The notes beneath the pieces were generated by a model that saw only the letters and a list, made by a program, of their open reading frames with translations, was not told the DNA's origin and searched no databases. A DNA stretch of 64,000 nt from positions 62,001-126,000 of the forward strand of contig CALURL010000001.1 in NCBI GenBank assembly GCA_944323155.1. Reading direction: 5' to 3'. The stretch is from Candidatus Gastranaerophilales bacterium. GTDB taxonomy: Bacteria > Cyanobacteriota > Vampirovibrionia > Gastranaerophilales > Gastranaerophilaceae. Made by a program: the position numbers and the translations under genes. Positions within the stretch are counted from its first letter, which is position 1. Every line of letters begins with the position of its first letter. Positions 8,621-62,025 of this stretch are shown here, in pieces.

Positions 8621-9655
8621 TTATCCGAACGTTTTGAAAGTAGATTCCGTGTTCTTTTCAATAACTTTTTGAACAGCATCCATTTCAGTTTGAATAGCAT
8701 CTTGTTCCGTATCTAATTGTTTCAATCTTAATTCTAAGTTTTTATCTTCAGCCTGAACAATTTCAATTTTAGCGTTAATTTCTTGAATAGATTGATCATA
8801 TTGATACTTATCATATTCATACTGGTTCATAGCGTCTTGATAAGCACTCTGATCAGTAGTTGTTTCAGTAGAAAGGGCATAAGTAGTTTCCTGGTTTGTA
8901 ACAGGATCGATTAATGTAATGTTAATCAATCTACCAGAAGAATCTTGCTCAATTCTCGCAGTAACCCCTTTGTGTTCTTTGGTTTTTTGAGTGCTTCCAA
9001 CAGTGTATGCCGGAATGTAGCTTTGAGAGCTTCCGTTATCAGAATAGTCTGCTCCGTCTAAATCTTCTTTTTTGTAGAAATATGGGTTCCAGGTTTTAGT
9101 AGTCGTGTTAAGTACATATCTAACCTGCCAATCACCTTGTCCATATTGTTCATCTAACATTTTTTTGTATTCTTCTTCTTCTTTAATCAAATTAGCAATT
9201 TGATCGTCAGAAAGAGTTTTTAAATATTCATCATTTTGTCTTTGTTCATCGGTAATTACTCCTAAAGTTCTGAGTTGTTTAGACCCGATGTAGTAATTAT
9301 AATCAGCAGTAGCTCCAATTTGTTCTCTAGTAACAATAGAAGAACCCGCAGACACAACAGAAAAATCATCAGTCCAGGAAGAAGTGTAGCTAACCAGGTA
9401 AGTACCATCAGCCTGAGCAATAAGAGCAGTTACGGTGTTGTTTAACGCTCCATCATTGAAAGAGTACACAGTTTTAGTGTAGTCATCAACAGAAGGAGGT
9501 GTTGGAACCGTCATCCCTAACAACTGATTGTAGTAGTTAGCAGATTGGTTAGACAACGTTGTTCTTTGTTGGTTGACCTGTTGTCCTTCATATTCAACAT
9601 TTGTCTTTCTAGCTGTCAAGCCCAGGAATCGAGCTTGAGATGCTGCCATACCCAT
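8621..9655 (-). CDS. Family-1 protein with conserved ends and variable middle (344 residues), function unknown
   Basis: The protein begins MGMAASQARFLGLTARK and ends in a long charged helix with the closing motif EKNTESTFKTFG. The 688-residue protein encoded at 46841 has the same two ends (MGMAAGQARLLSITSR and DKNVERTFKLYS) but an unrelated, larger middle, so the two are paralogues. There is no Sec signal peptide and no membrane segment. Predicted helices at residues 1-50 and 270-344 bracket a Ser/Thr/Tyr-rich, probably beta-rich centre. The layout resembles self-assembling axial or filament proteins such as flagellin-type proteins, but that is only an analogy. Ribosome binding site GGAAG lies upstream; terminator at 8503-8528. 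Single-gene unit. Confidence 0.7.
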   Translation of the reverse strand: MGMAASQARFLGLTARKTNVEYEGQQVNQQRTTLSNQSANYYNQLLGMTVPTPPSVDDYTKTVYSFNDGALNNTVTALIAQADGTYLVSYTSSWTDDFSVVSAGSSIVTREQIGATADYNYYIGSKQLRTLGVITDEQRQNDEYLKTLSDDQIANLIKEEEEYKKMLDEQYGQGDWQVRYVLNTTTKTWNPYFYKKEDLDGADYSDNGSSQSYIPAYTVGSTQKTKEHKGVTARIEQDSSGRLINITLIDPVTNQETTYALSTETTTDQSAYQDAMNQYEYDKYQYDQSIQEINAKIEIVQAEDKNLELRLKQLDTEQDAIQTEMDAVQKVIEKNTESTFKTFG

Positions 9656-22885: not shown

Positions 22886-23242
22886 CTAACAAACAAAGCT
22901 GCTTGAACTACCTCCGCAGGAACCGCCAGATGAAGCACCGCAGCTTGCTGAACCTGTTGATGCACCTGTAAAATTAGCACCTCCTAAAACAGATACTGCA
23001 GATGAAAAATTACTTAAAAATCCGCCTGTAGAAGAGGATTCTGAAGTTGTATCAGCATATTGCGAATAGTCTACAGCAAAAGGATTACTTGATGAAAATA
23101 CATCATATACATTTGTTGAAAACAAACTCTTTCCGCTTGCCATTGCAAGTGAACCAGCAGTTTCAACTGATTCAACAGGTTTATTGTTCATAATTTGGTT
23201 TGCTGCTCTTTCTTGTGATGTTTTGGAACTTATGTTATTCAT
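22886..23242 (-). CDS. Small Ser/Gly/Cys-rich protein of unknown function (atypical-promoter group)
   Basis: A 118-residue protein that I do not recognise. The N-terminal half is polar (MNNISSKTSQERAANQIM) with a short helical stretch. The second half is dominated by Ser, Gly, Thr and Ala, and the last 26 residues carry three cysteines in a Gly/Ser setting (SCGASSGGSCGG, then FVC at the end). No Sec signal peptide is present. The tail recalls leader-core layouts of modified peptides or Gly-rich surface proteins. No maturation enzyme is adjacent, so both ideas are speculative. AGGAG is six bases before the ATG. The promoter at 23282-23310 matches that of four other genes in this window. Confidence 0.65.
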   Translation of the reverse strand: MNNISSKTSQERAANQIMNNKPVESVETAGSLAMASGKSLFSTNVYDVFSSSNPFAVDYSQYADTTSESSSTGGFLSNFSSAVSVLGGANFTGASTGSASCGASSGGSCGGSSSSFVC

Positions 23243-23281: not shown

Positions 23282-23310
23282 TATAAACAATAAAAAAAAT
23301 ATCCAATTTC
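23282..23310 (-). promoter_or_regulatory. Atypical shared promoter, copy 1 (GAAATT-17-TTTATA)
   Basis: On the minus strand GAAATT (23305-23310), a 17-base spacer and TTTATA (23282-23287). Same spacing and boxes as the copies at 32659, 52416, 60400 and 60823, with one substitution in the upstream box. It lies 40 bases before the ATG at 23242. Confidence 0.55.
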
Positions 23311-32658: not shown

Positions 32659-32687
32659 GCAATTTTAACTTATATATATACTTTATA
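32659..32687 (+). promoter_or_regulatory. Atypical shared promoter, copy 2 (GCAATT-17-TTTATA)
   Basis: GCAATT (32659-32664), a 17-base spacer ending TATAC, and TTTATA (32682-32687). It lies 33 bases before the ATG at 32720. Further upstream, AATGTTAATAAAAA at 32634 recurs before copy 4. Confidence 0.6.
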
Positions 32688-32719: not shown

Positions 32720-33238
32720 ATGGGTTTTCTATCAGGCGCATACGGTAAATTAATGGCTGGGAAAATGGTCCGCTCAATACAATACGAGATGACCAGAGTC
32801 CAAAGTCAATTGCGCCGCGTTACCAGAGAATTAGGCAACGCGGAAAAGATGTTTAATGCCCAAGAACGCAATATTAAAACCCAAATGCAAGCTAAAATGC
32901 AGCAAAGTGTTTTCCAATATGGTGCTGGTTTAGGTATGAATATAGGTGATCCAACATCACTTGTTGGTATGGATTCAGCTATTATGCAAAAATATTCTGC
33001 ATTCCAGCAATATCAACAATATCAGTATACAATGGCACAGAATAGCTGGCAAAATGCATTCGAAATGCAGCGTGACATGGTAATGGAACAATTGCAAGCT
33101 GAGCAAGAAGATTTAGAAACACAAAAAGATAACTTAGATAGTAGATTACAAATTGCACAACAAGACTATGATCAGAAGAAGAAAGAAGAACAGGCTGGGG
33201 CCAAGAACATAGCTCCGGACTACACAGGTCAAGGTTAA
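32720..33238 (+). CDS. Small Gln-rich coiled-coil protein of unknown function (atypical-promoter group)
   Basis: A 172-residue protein starting MGFLSGAYGKLMAGKMVRS. A helical N-terminus (about 15-65) with regular Leu/Arg/Gln spacing and a C-terminal coiled coil (about 120-160, DLETQKDNLDSRLQIAQQDY) enclose a Gln/Tyr/Met-rich middle (QQYQQYQYTMAQNSWQ). There is no signal peptide. The ends-with-coil layout echoes the larger family-1 proteins at 8621 and 46841, but sequence similarity is weak. It may be a self-assembling structural or secreted protein (inference). AAGGA is six bases before the ATG. Own terminator at 33252-33278. Confidence 0.65.
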   Translation: MGFLSGAYGKLMAGKMVRSIQYEMTRVQSQLRRVTRELGNAEKMFNAQERNIKTQMQAKMQQSVFQYGAGLGMNIGDPTSLVGMDSAIMQKYSAFQQYQQYQYTMAQNSWQNAFEMQRDMVMEQLQAEQEDLETQKDNLDSRLQIAQQDYDQKKKEEQAGAKNIAPDYTGQG

Positions 33239-46723: not shown

Positions 46724-46840
46724 ATATTAAGAATTTGTAACAATAACTCGTTAAATATTAAAGATAATAAATAAAAAAGCCGATAGCCATAGTAAGGCAC
46801 AAAAGTTACTAAAGGATAAGAAAGGACATAAGTTAAAGCT

Positions 46841-48907
46841 ATGGGAATGGCAGCAGGACAAGCAAGATTATTATCAATAACATCTCGTATGTCTGATAAC
46901 GAGTTAAGAGCTCAGCTTATCAATAACTCAAAGCTGCGTTTAGCAACAGAAAGTTCTCAGGCTAGTGAAGCATACACAACTGCTTTAAACGAAGCACAAA
47001 TGATGTTTACAAACTATGGTCCTGATAATACTTCATCATACCAGCAGTTAACTTATAATTCATTAACAAAATATAATCCGTATAATAATCAGTATGCACT
47101 TGCAAATTCAAGCGGACAGGTTCTTGTTTCAGAAACTGATGCAGCAAATTATGTAAATGCACAAGGCAGTTTAGACAGATTTTTAGCTTCATACGGATTA
47201 ACTCAAGGTACAACATACTTTGACGAATTATCTAAATATACAGATGCGTCAGGAGTAGTTGATGGCATTGGCTACACACCACAGGAACTTGAATCATTAT
47301 ATATGGGAACAAATGGCAATCCTGGTTATACAGCTTTGTTAGAATCAAGTGCATATTACAACTATACTAAATACAGTGATGCACTTGCAGAAGAATATGA
47401 AACATTGGTTGATACAATCTGGCCTGATGTTGAAGGTGCATTGATTACCGGAAAAAATGAAGACGGAAGTGCTTATTCAGGAACTGTAAGCAAAGTTTTA
47501 ATAGACGGTCAATCTCTTGCTGATTTTAAAACAAACAAGTTAGATCCACTTGAAGGAAAAGAATACCTTAACACAGGTGACGTTGAATCATCATTTGATA
47601 AATTTTATCAATATATTCAAAGTTGCGGCAGCTTACTTAGAGGCGATACAAGCAACACTTTATATCAAAATGTTATGCAGATATTAGATAGTGGAAAAGC
47701 TTCTGCAGGACACACCATAGGAAATGGTTCTGATGTTCATGGCGGACCTACAACTGAATACGGATTCAGCCTTGAAATGGATGGTGAAAGCACATGCTAC
47801 GCTGCAGTAGATGATTTTTACTTAAAATTTACTAAGCAGACAGATGGTTCATGGAAAATTGACACAACCAATGTTTACTACTATAACGATGATACTGAAC
47901 CTAACGGCTACGTTGCTGGAAACCCAACAGATGGCGCACAGGTAACATCAAAAAATCTTAGTGATTCAACTGTGTCTATGACGATACAAGCAAATGGTAC
48001 AGATCAAGTTGTTTTGTCAGGCATAAAAACAAGTGTATTTACAAGTGCTATTACAGATATGATAAATGCAGGAAAAACAACATCAGAAGATTGTACCTGG
48101 ACAAGCGCTCAAGGAGGCACAATTACTCTTGGCGCAAGCGCGGGAGAAGAAGTTTTGCTATCTTCAATAACTCAGGCGTACACTATGTGGACTTCCGGAT
48201 TGGAATACCACATTGACCCAACTACGTTTCCAGGAACTGGTGATGTAACACAGTTTGTAAATACTGCTAGAGATTTTGCAAACTTCTTGTTTACAGATGC
48301 AAGTAGAATCAGTGATAGTGAACTTTTACAGCTTGTTACATATGAAGATTTATACGAATTAATGAAAAACAAAGGATTAAACATAACTGATGCTTTCGAT
48401 CAAGTACTAGATTTGTTTACCTTGGAAAACATGATGGATTTATATGGCGAACCTAAAATAGCATGGATTGATAGTACTGACCCTAACGGTACTGGCGATG
48501 CAGACAAAAAAGCTCAATGGTATACAAATTTATTTGAAAGAATGGGCAACGGCGAAAAGAACAACTTTAAAGTTCTTGGTAACGGACTTGCTGCAAGTGC
48601 AGAATGGATTAAATATGCACTAGAAAGCGGACTTGTTACAATGGAACAGGTTACAGAGTCAAATGAATGGTCTTCTGTTATGTACACCACTGTAAGTGAT
48701 ATTACAGAACAATCAAATGACCTTGCTGTTACCATTGCAGAAGCTGAATATCAAAAAGCAATGAATAAAATTGAAGCTAAAGACAAACAATACGACCTTG
48801 AATTAAAAAATATTGATACTGAACATAACTCATTGCAAACAGAATATGATTCAATAAAATCTGCAATTGACAAAAACGTTGAAAGAACATTTAAACTCTA
48901 TTCTTAA
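46841..48907 (+). CDS. Family-1 protein with conserved ends and variable middle (688 residues), function unknown
   Basis: Starts MGMAAGQARLLSITSRMSDNE and ends with a charged helix carrying IDTEHNSLQTEYDSIKSA and DKNVERTFKLYS, closely like the ends of the 344-residue protein at 8621. The 550-residue middle is acidic, rich in Thr, Ser, Asn, Asp and Tyr, poor in Cys and without a known domain, as expected for an exposed beta-rich region. No signal peptide or membrane helix is present. A role as a large secreted or self-assembling surface protein is possible. GAAAGGA lies 15 bases before the ATG, longer than usual. No terminator is clear downstream. Confidence 0.7.
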   Translation: MGMAAGQARLLSITSRMSDNELRAQLINNSKLRLATESSQASEAYTTALNEAQMMFTNYGPDNTSSYQQLTYNSLTKYNPYNNQYALANSSGQVLVSETDAANYVNAQGSLDRFLASYGLTQGTTYFDELSKYTDASGVVDGIGYTPQELESLYMGTNGNPGYTALLESSAYYNYTKYSDALAEEYETLVDTIWPDVEGALITGKNEDGSAYSGTVSKVLIDGQSLADFKTNKLDPLEGKEYLNTGDVESSFDKFYQYIQSCGSLLRGDTSNTLYQNVMQILDSGKASAGHTIGNGSDVHGGPTTEYGFSLEMDGESTCYAAVDDFYLKFTKQTDGSWKIDTTNVYYYNDDTEPNGYVAGNPTDGAQVTSKNLSDSTVSMTIQANGTDQVVLSGIKTSVFTSAITDMINAGKTTSEDCTWTSAQGGTITLGASAGEEVLLSSITQAYTMWTSGLEYHIDPTTFPGTGDVTQFVNTARDFANFLFTDASRISDSELLQLVTYEDLYELMKNKGLNITDAFDQVLDLFTLENMMDLYGEPKIAWIDSTDPNGTGDADKKAQWYTNLFERMGNGEKNNFKVLGNGLAASAEWIKYALESGLVTMEQVTESNEWSSVMYTTVSDITEQSNDLAVTIAEAEYQKAMNKIEAKDKQYDLELKNIDTEHNSLQTEYDSIKSAIDKNVERTFKLYS

Positions 48908-52415: not shown

Positions 52416-52444
52416 GCAATTATATATAATCAAAATACTTTATT
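52416..52444 (+). promoter_or_regulatory. Atypical shared promoter, copy 3 (GCAATT-17-TTTATT)
   Basis: GCAATT (52416-52421), a 17-base spacer ending AATAC, then TTTATT (52439-52444). It lies 42 bases before the ATG at 52486. Confidence 0.55.
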
Positions 52445-52485: not shown

Positions 52486-53391
52486 ATGACTTTCAATATC
52501 GGAGAATTCGGCAAAAGTTTACTTAATATTGGTACGGGAATTACAAATACAGCCCTTACCTATGGTATTATGAAAGACATGAATTCTTGTGGCGGAAGCA
52601 TCTGGGGTGGCTACTTTGGCGGAGGCTACTCTTTTGGTGGCGGATATCCTATGATGGGTTTAAATTATGGTGCTATTAACGTTGCAGGCCAGGCTGCATA
52701 TATGCAAGGCGTGCAGGATAGATTGGCAATTGAAGCTCAAAGAATGGCTGAAGGACTTCTAAAAACTAACAATACAAAGGCTGAAGCAGTTTCAGATAAT
52801 CAAGATACCTCTAAAGCAGAAGCTTTTGAAAATGCAACTAAATCTATGATGGATAAGGATGGTGAAGTTGTCAGTGGAGAAAAATTCAGTTTAGTATCTG
52901 ATGATTGGAAAAAATCATTAGAAAACGGAGGAGATGCAAAAGAATTAGCAAAACAATATAAAGCAAGTCTAAGTGATTTAGGGAAGTCATATCTGAGAAA
53001 TATTGATAAACTAGCCGGTAACAGCGATGGTTATGTTACAGAAAAAGAATTTGTTCAACACAGTCTAAATTCAGCTTTTGCAGCATTACCAAGTGATGCA
53101 ACAGAAGAAGAAAAGGCTGAATATGAAGCTGCAAAAGCAAAGGCTGAGCAAATGGCAAGAAATGCTTTTGCAAAACTAGATCAAAACGGCGATAAAGTTA
53201 TAGATTGGAAAGAAAGTGCTGCGATGTTTGCTGCGGCTGACGCCGAAAACTTAACAGGAAATATTAACGGCGAAATTGCATCTGAAGATTTTGCGAAACT
53301 TTCTGAAAGTATTACCCAATCAGGTACAAATGCAGCTGATAAAGCTCTAAGAAAAGGTTATACAAACTTATTCGGAAACCAAAAGAAATAA
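52486..53391 (+). CDS. EF-hand protein with Gly-rich N-terminus (atypical-promoter group)
   Basis: A 301-residue protein. The N-terminal 65 residues are Gly/Tyr/Trp-rich (GGYFGGGYSFGGGYP). Four EF-hand-like loops follow: DKDGEVVSGEKF, NSDGYVTEKEF, the canonical DQNGDKVIDWKE (all Ca ligands present), and a weak NINGEIASEDF. It lacks a signal peptide. Calcium-binding and Gly-rich parts suggest a surface or matrix protein, exported by an unknown route (inference). The frame is open from 52468, but ACGAGG stands seven bases before the ATG at 52486. Confidence 0.75.
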   Translation: MTFNIGEFGKSLLNIGTGITNTALTYGIMKDMNSCGGSIWGGYFGGGYSFGGGYPMMGLNYGAINVAGQAAYMQGVQDRLAIEAQRMAEGLLKTNNTKAEAVSDNQDTSKAEAFENATKSMMDKDGEVVSGEKFSLVSDDWKKSLENGGDAKELAKQYKASLSDLGKSYLRNIDKLAGNSDGYVTEKEFVQHSLNSAFAALPSDATEEEKAEYEAAKAKAEQMARNAFAKLDQNGDKVIDWKESAAMFAAADAENLTGNINGEIASEDFAKLSESITQSGTNAADKALRKGYTNLFGNQKK

Positions 53392-60399: not shown

Positions 60400-60428
60400 G
60401 CAATTATTGCACATTTATATACTTTATA
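60400..60428 (+). promoter_or_regulatory. Atypical shared promoter, copy 4 (GCAATT-17-TTTATA)
   Basis: GCAATT (60400-60405), a 17-base spacer ending TATAC and TTTATA (60423-60428). It lies 36 bases before the ATG at 60464. AATGTTAATAAAAA recurs 27 bases upstream, as at copy 2. Confidence 0.6.
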
Positions 60429-60463
60429 TAAATACAAGGGAATTATTAAGGGGATAAAATACT

Positions 60464-60691
60464 ATGGTCTGTTTTAACACATTACCGCCAAGACATTGCT
60501 TTAGAGGTTCAAGGACAACTATTATAAATAATAACTTTTTTGGAGGCCCTGCTTTAAGACCAATGCCTGTTTGGAGGCCGCCAGTATTTTGTTATGGCGG
60601 ATATTGGGGAAACAATTTCTGCAATATAGCCACAACATTTGCAGCAACAAGTTTGTTTGTAAATGGTATTACAAATTTATTGAAATCATAA
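60464..60691 (+). CDS. Small Asn/Gly/Pro-rich protein of unknown function (atypical-promoter group)
   Basis: A 75-residue protein. SRTTIINNNFFGG at about residues 16-28 is nearly repeated in the next gene (SRTTIVNNNF). Its centre is Pro/Trp/Tyr/Gly-rich (MPVWRPPVFCYGGYWG), and it ends in a hydrophobic helix (ATTFAATSLFVNGITNLL). No known family. It may be a membrane-associated or assembly partner of the downstream protein (inference). AAGGGG is the ribosome binding site. Terminator at 60731. Confidence 0.6.
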   Translation: MVCFNTLPPRHCFRGSRTTIINNNFFGGPALRPMPVWRPPVFCYGGYWGNNFCNIATTFAATSLFVNGITNLLKS

Positions 60692-60730
60692 TACTCACTT
60701 TTCAGATATTGTTAAATAATATAAATAAAT

Positions 60731-60759
60731 AAAAGCTCTCTTGTTCAGAGGGCTTTTAT
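60731..60759 (+). terminator. Rho-independent terminator after the 75-residue protein gene
   Basis: AAAAGCTCTC / AGAGGGCTTTT with loop TTGTTC and one wobble pair, about 40 bases after the stop. It separates two genes that each have their own copy of the atypical promoter. Confidence 0.7.
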
Positions 60760-60822
60760 ATTGGGTATATATATATTAGATATCAATTGTAAACAATTGT
60801 AAAGCAAAATGTATCAAAAAAA

Positions 60823-60851
60823 GCAATTATATAATCGTTATATACTTTATA
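60823..60851 (+). promoter_or_regulatory. Atypical shared promoter, copy 5 (GCAATT-17-TTTATA)
   Basis: GCAATT (60823-60828), a 17-base spacer ending TATAC and TTTATA (60846-60851). It lies 32 bases before the ATG at 60883. Confidence 0.6.
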
Positions 60852-60882: not shown

Positions 60883-62025
60883 ATGAATTACATGGGAGTA
60901 ACACCAACAAGAACAAGACCAATAAGTTATAACCCGCTACGCGCAGGCCAGTTTAGAGGCTATCGCGGCTGTAACGTTATTCCAAGCAGAACAACAATTG
61001 TTAATAACAATTTTGTTAATTATCAAATGCCTTCTGTAAATTGCAACTATGCATATCAAGATCCTGGTATGAGCAGTGGCATGAAATGGATGCTTGGTTT
61101 AGGCTTAGGTACATCAATTCTTGGCAGTATACTTTCATTCTTCGGAGTAGGCAACAACTCAACACCTGTTGATGGACAAGGGGGTGAAGCACCGGCAGCT
61201 CCACCTGCAAATGACCAGAGTCAACAAATTGCCCAACTGCAAGAAAGAGTTGAAACTTTAGAAGATCAATTAGCAAACTCTCAAACAACTCAACCTGCAA
61301 CCACTCAGACTGAACCAGCAGTTGCACAACAAACTACTGAACAAGACAACAAACCAAAAACCGACTATTCAAACTTCAAAAATGGTGCAGCAATGGTTTG
61401 TAGAGATGCAAGCGGAAAAACCGCAAATATTTCAGGCACTTTATCTGATGTACAGCTTGATGCAAACGGAGTACCGCAAAGCTTTACATTAACTGATTCA
61501 GGTTCTAAAAACAGATATAAATATACAGTAAGCGCAAATGCTGATGGAAGTTTGAACTTCACCTGTGTAAGCAAAAATGATCAAGCAACAATTGGTTCAC
61601 CAAATTATACATATACAAATGGAGAATTAGTTCAAGAAAACAATTCATTTAACGGTTACGGCATTGGTATAAGAACTGCTACAAAACCAGCAGCACCACA
61701 AAATGATCCGCCGAAACCAGCTAGTAATGAACCACCTGAAGGTACAATGAAAGATGTTACTTCAAACTTCTTCACAGCAGAGACACCATTTTATAATGTA
61801 AAAGATGGTAAATATCATTCAACACCGGATCAAGAACACTCCTGGATGAATCCGAGATTTAATCAAGCAGGGGGAGCAAGCAAACCTGAAACAGCGCCTG
61901 CAAGTAATGAACAAGTTAAGTTGGAATATAAATACTATAATCACAGAGGACATTTTTACGCAAACGGCAAAGAAATTACTCAACAGGAATATAGAGAACT
62001 TAAAAAAGCACAAGAAAATGCTTAA
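60883..62025 (+). CDS. Asn-motif protein with hydrophobic segment and Pro/Gln-rich linker (atypical-promoter group)
   Basis: A 380-residue protein. SRTTIVNNNF at about residues 33-42 repeats the motif of the preceding 75-residue gene. A hydrophobic Gly-rich helix follows (WMLGLGLGTSILGSILSFF, about 64-82), then a Pro/Ala/Gln-rich linker with a short coiled coil (IAQLQERVETLEDQL), a beta-rich region (about 165-270), and a C-terminal segment ending KYYNHRGHFYANGKEITQQE. No known family. It may be a membrane-attached surface protein. CGGAG stands seven bases before the ATG, and a TTG at 60877 is rejected. Strong terminator at 62031. Confidence 0.65.
   Translation: MNYMGVTPTRTRPISYNPLRAGQFRGYRGCNVIPSRTTIVNNNFVNYQMPSVNCNYAYQDPGMSSGMKWMLGLGLGTSILGSILSFFGVGNNSTPVDGQGGEAPAAPPANDQSQQIAQLQERVETLEDQLANSQTTQPATTQTEPAVAQQTTEQDNKPKTDYSNFKNGAAMVCRDASGKTANISGTLSDVQLDANGVPQSFTLTDSGSKNRYKYTVSANADGSLNFTCVSKNDQATIGSPNYTYTNGELVQENNSFNGYGIGIRTATKPAAPQNDPPKPASNEPPEGTMKDVTSNFFTAETPFYNVKDGKYHSTPDQEHSWMNPRFNQAGGASKPETAPASNEQVKLEYKYYNHRGHFYANGKEITQQEYRELKKAQENA

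Follow-up and report, generated by a model that had tools for sequence, protein, structure and literature searches.

A probable alternative promoter class with a fixed 17-base spacer precedes mostly uncharacterised genes in Gastranaerophilales

The genome of a Candidatus Gastranaerophilales bacterium carries a bipartite motif, GCAATT-N17-TTTATW, that is a real alternative promoter class and very likely a docking site for RNA polymerase in a specialised form. We infer that it starts transcription and that a sigma factor, not an activator, reads it, and the two boxes are probably the -35 and -10 elements of a single alternative-sigma promoter class that drives a regulon of the order. In the mechanism we propose, RGCAATTTTT would serve as the -35 element and WTACTTTATA or TGTTTTTATA as the -10 element, both being read by RNA polymerase with an alternative sigma factor. 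The regulon would take in about 30-60 proteins, most of them uncharacterised, together with small RHH regulators and several candidate small RNAs that end in terminators.

The motif came to attention in a 64-kb stretch of one contig (the window), for which the first-pass annotation had listed five shared sites. A pattern search of both strands for GMAATT-N17-TTTATW recovered these five and no others, and 100 dinucleotide shuffles of the window gave a mean of 0.63 matches, none reaching five. The sites and the genes downstream of them are as follows.

22886..23242, minus strand: gene 3' of the weak variant, 118 aa, with a Cys/Gly/Ser-rich tail
23282..23310, minus strand: weak variant GAAATT-N17-TTTATA, a pattern match (PWM 8.6 bits)
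32659..32687, plus strand: promoter-like motif GCAATT-N17-TTTATA (PWM 30.8)
32720..33238, plus strand: target gene, 172 aa, Gln-rich and coiled-coil-like, without a Pfam match; ATG 32 nt past the motif
52416..52444, plus strand: promoter-like motif GCAATT-N17-TTTATT (PWM 30.8)
52486..53391, plus strand: target gene, 301 aa, EF-hand matches below threshold; ATG 41 nt past the motif
60400..60428, plus strand: promoter-like motif GCAATT-N17-TTTATA (PWM 33.6)
60464..60691, plus strand: target gene, 75 aa, with SRTTIINNNF inside; ATG 35 nt past the motif
60823..60851, plus strand: promoter-like motif GCAATT-N17-TTTATA (PWM 29.0)
60883..62025, plus strand: target gene, about 380 aa, with SRTTIVNNNF inside and no Pfam match; ATG 31 nt past the motif

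The four plus-strand sites (32659, 52416, 60400, and 60823) are strong, and all four have the AC that had been described ahead of the T run; the identical 29 bases of the last also occur in a congener (G001:C2:98085). The minus-strand copy at 23282 is the weakest of the five, scoring 8.6 bits against a matrix trained on GCAATT sites, and above 8 bits the matches to the reversed matrix are about half as numerous (48 versus 89). Its placement and leader make it a plausible member of the set, insecure when taken alone. The distance from motif to ATG, given earlier as 32-42 bases, measures 31-42.

Across the 1.79-Mb genome there are 35 exact matches to GCAATT-N17-TTTATW and 1 to the reversed pattern. 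Matrix matches above 14 bits number 28 versus 2 with the reversed matrix. Placement and spacing were examined in about 594 kb of stretches, roughly a third of the genome, of which open reading frames (ORFs) occupy about 91%. All nine copies of GCAATT-N17-TTTATA in this sample are intergenic, eight of them with a called gene starting no more than 150 bp further on, and only a spacing of 17 is enriched, with no comparable signal at other spacings. Aligned sites read RGCAATTTTT, then AWTAC-TTTATA-TA, and lie mostly 24-50 nt ahead of start codons in intergenic DNA; two sites (L019 and L023) look like chance matches. With respect to random placement and equal use before housekeeping genes, the outcome favours a dedicated promoter.

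Extending the search to related genomes, as the first-pass annotation had proposed, we found the motif enriched in all 38 relatives searched within the order, relative to reversed-pattern controls whose counts were far lower both there and in class-wide draws. The strict WWACTTTATA form was present in 98 of 98 genomes drawn from the order versus 0 of 96 from other families of the class. Among neighbouring families, the TGTTTTTATA form occurs in f9 (10/10 genomes), f15 (4/4), and f14 (2/4), while 32 genomes of families f8 and f10-f13 yielded three matches, every one inside an ORF. With a looser pattern, counts in most outgroup genomes were close to the control. The motif is confined to one branch of the class, and five other families are essentially without it. 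Several f9 and f14 spacers include a core sequence, CTTAA or CTTAAG (L238, L239, L240, L249, L250, and L251).

The targets are mostly uncharacterised proteins with few Pfam families. The first-pass annotation had proposed testing whether matches concentrate ahead of small unknown proteins; here 3 of 20 targets exceed the Pfam cutoff versus 7 of 10 control genes (Fisher P = 0.005), the three being an M16 peptidase, an HD protein, and an RHH protein. No Sec signals were apparent in the target proteins, as judged by eye. In 25 genomes examined, genes for RHH regulators mostly have the motif in front of them, and this covers all seven families of the order, although the case is weaker in f2 and f3, where the G024 site scores low and the listed G025 and G031 copies have none, so that for these two families the statement rests on the general enrichment among the 38 relatives. 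Three target types keep the motif both here and in a genome of a different family (G029). Taken together, the genome-wide excess, intergenic placement, and Pfam depletion uphold the initial proposal of a dedicated alternative promoter for a mostly uncharacterised gene set.

The motif has the attributes of an alternative-sigma class, namely, two boxes at one fixed spacing, a position just ahead of genes, and conservation before related genes, and its consensus (RGCAATTTTT / WTACTTTATA) departs from each of the familiar promoter types. It differs from the RpoD class (TTGACA at -35, TATAAT at -10) and has neither box of the sigma-28 class (TAAA and GCCGATAA). A sigma-28/FliA promoter (TAAA-N15-GCCGATAA) is likewise a bipartite alternative promoter, sharing the AA and TTT positions of the -35 box, but canonical FliA-type sites are separate from the motif in this genome. 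ECF promoters (GGAACTT-N16-CGTC) have a similar geometry and a T-rich stretch past the -35 core, but the motif lacks both the AAC core of their -35 box (GGAAC/GAAAC) and the CGTC of their -10, and the canonical ECF example here precedes the sigma gene L032, apart from the motif. The cyanobacterial SigF class pairs TAGGC with GGTAA about 15 bp apart, as at the Synechocystis pilA1 promoter of this group 3 sigma factor, with TAGGC at -32 and GGTAA at -12 (PMC2758279). Its AGGC overlaps the RGGC start of the -35 box in about 40% of our own sites, but the -10 box here is TTTATA, the aligned-site consensus is without GGTAA, and TAGGC-N14..16-GGTAA was not enriched in the 594-kb sample.

Eight sigma-70-type proteins are encoded in the genome, and none of their genes has the motif upstream, so autoregulation was not found. 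The first-pass annotation had pointed to an ECF or sigma-28-type factor as reader, and neither suggestion is favoured. The FliA-type sigma (L037) was rejected since it owns four canonical TAAAG-N15-GCCGAT sites at gene starts, one of them inside the window:

46759..46784, plus strand: sigma-28 (FliA-type) site TAAAG-N15-GCCGAT, 56 nt ahead of a 688-aa ORF (46841-48907)

The 688-aa protein begins MGMAAGQARLLSITSRMSD, and a similar start, MGMAASQARFLGLTARK, is found at 8621-9655 of the window. One ECF factor (L036) is missing from the motif-rich genomes G024 and G025, and the other (L038) occurs in families without the motif, as do relatives of L034, the SigF-type protein that fits the SigF model best. 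The canonical ECF promoter is found instead at L032 (G000:C1:226189-227202), where GAAAC-N16-CGTC is the sole intergenic upstream site of its type in the 594-kb sample and is recognisable ahead of most orthologues listed; its position would be consistent with a cascade from an ECF factor to the L032 sigma.

By elimination among the eight sigma factors, the leading candidate reader is the divergent group 2 type represented by L035 (G000:C6:59758), an assignment we make tentatively and at somewhat less than even confidence. Both L035 and L032 are RpoD-like, as are the group 2 sigma factors of cyanobacteria; these usually overlap RpoD in specificity, unlike the arrangement proposed here, with its own -35 and -10. 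L035 matches cyanobacterial-type and other SigA proteins, and its region 4.2 helix reads TKECIRQTE versus TRERIRQIE in RpoD. The retained E, R, and Q are residues that RpoD uses at TTGACA, which GCAATT does not resemble. Of 13 motif-bearing genomes examined, 12 yielded an L035-type protein, as against none of 6 motif-less ones, a contrast that is drawn from fetched sigma proteins with the sigma sets of outgroup genomes partly covered, and that overstates independence because the compared genomes are related. The L035 type was not found in G026, a motif-bearing genome of the order (f4, 99% complete).

It is unlikely, though worth weighing, that another group 2 sigma reads the motif, either L033, which the order shares with some neighbours, or L032, found in the order only. 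L033-type proteins are in every order genome examined as well as in G073 and G045, a distribution nearly that of L035, but the L033 -35 helix is identical to that of RpoD and G045 has an L033 relative without having the motif. L032 has a changed region 2.4, and its type was found in 10 of 10 other order genomes examined and was the best match in no outgroup; against it, no L032 was found in f9 and f15, both of which have the TGTTTTTATA form, and the sigma proteins retrieved for two motif-bearing neighbours did not include it. We give a marginally smaller chance to a transcription activator that would sit on GCAATTTTT across the -35 region and bring in the usual RpoD holoenzyme where the -10 box is poor. 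The resemblance of TTTATATA to a degenerate TATAAT and the lack of an autoregulated sigma gene would suit such an activator, but the sites are non-palindromic with spacing constant at 17, and the changed -35 helix of L035 together with its matching distribution offers a simpler route. It is highly improbable that we are dealing with a variant of the usual RpoD promoter or an artefact of base composition: the genome is AT-rich (33% GC), as are the spacers, but reversed-pattern controls are far lower (the 35-to-1 excess), f10-f13 are essentially without the motif, and its targets are depleted of Pfam families.

Some motif copies precede no protein-coding gene. Sites L011 and L015 in this genome sit ahead of ORF-less stretches of 105-150 nt, and similar stretches follow sites in G001, G196, G205, G209, G029, G034, and G037. 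An intrinsic terminator closes nearly all of them, the L015 sequence ending at the contig edge. The resulting candidate small RNAs, preceded by the motif, ORF-less, and terminator-ended, are L011, L015, L159, L298-L301, L304-L306, and L309; they occur as two copies per genome in four genomes, and the order has them in two families or more. Stretches of CUAACC or CUACCU are present in many of them and a GGAAUU-type hairpin in several, and none matched an Rfam family above threshold. GGTTA doublets were noted post hoc in 4 of 15 leaders of motif genes versus 2 of 571 others, the L032 leader being one of those two. AGGTTA repeats lie close to the start codon at L001, L009, C1:137400, C2:39525, and the sigma gene L032, with ACACGAG or ACGGGGAA in their place in some leaders. 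Base pairing between candidate small RNAs and leaders was overall no better than with dinucleotide-shuffled small RNAs, and the motif genes as a class did not have lower duplex energies with the candidates.

The order probably consists of gut bacteria belonging to the nonphotosynthetic Cyanobacteriota. A partial flagellar set has been reported for Gastranaerophilales (PMC4040986); this genome encodes two FlhA-type proteins and FlgB/C/F/G-like genes (L072, L073, and L071), and no flagellin match was found beside them. Our literature search found no paper tying Gastranaerophilales by name to sigma factors. We speculate, with modest expectation of being right, that an RpoD-like group 2 sigma gained a strict bipartite promoter, that the resulting regulon is among the largest alternative regulons of this gut-associated order, and that the multicopy small RNAs may have some of these same mRNAs as regulatory targets. 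The motif offers a concrete way into gene regulation in Gastranaerophilales, one that would unite dozens of uncharacterised genes as a single regulon with few candidate sigma factors to consider.
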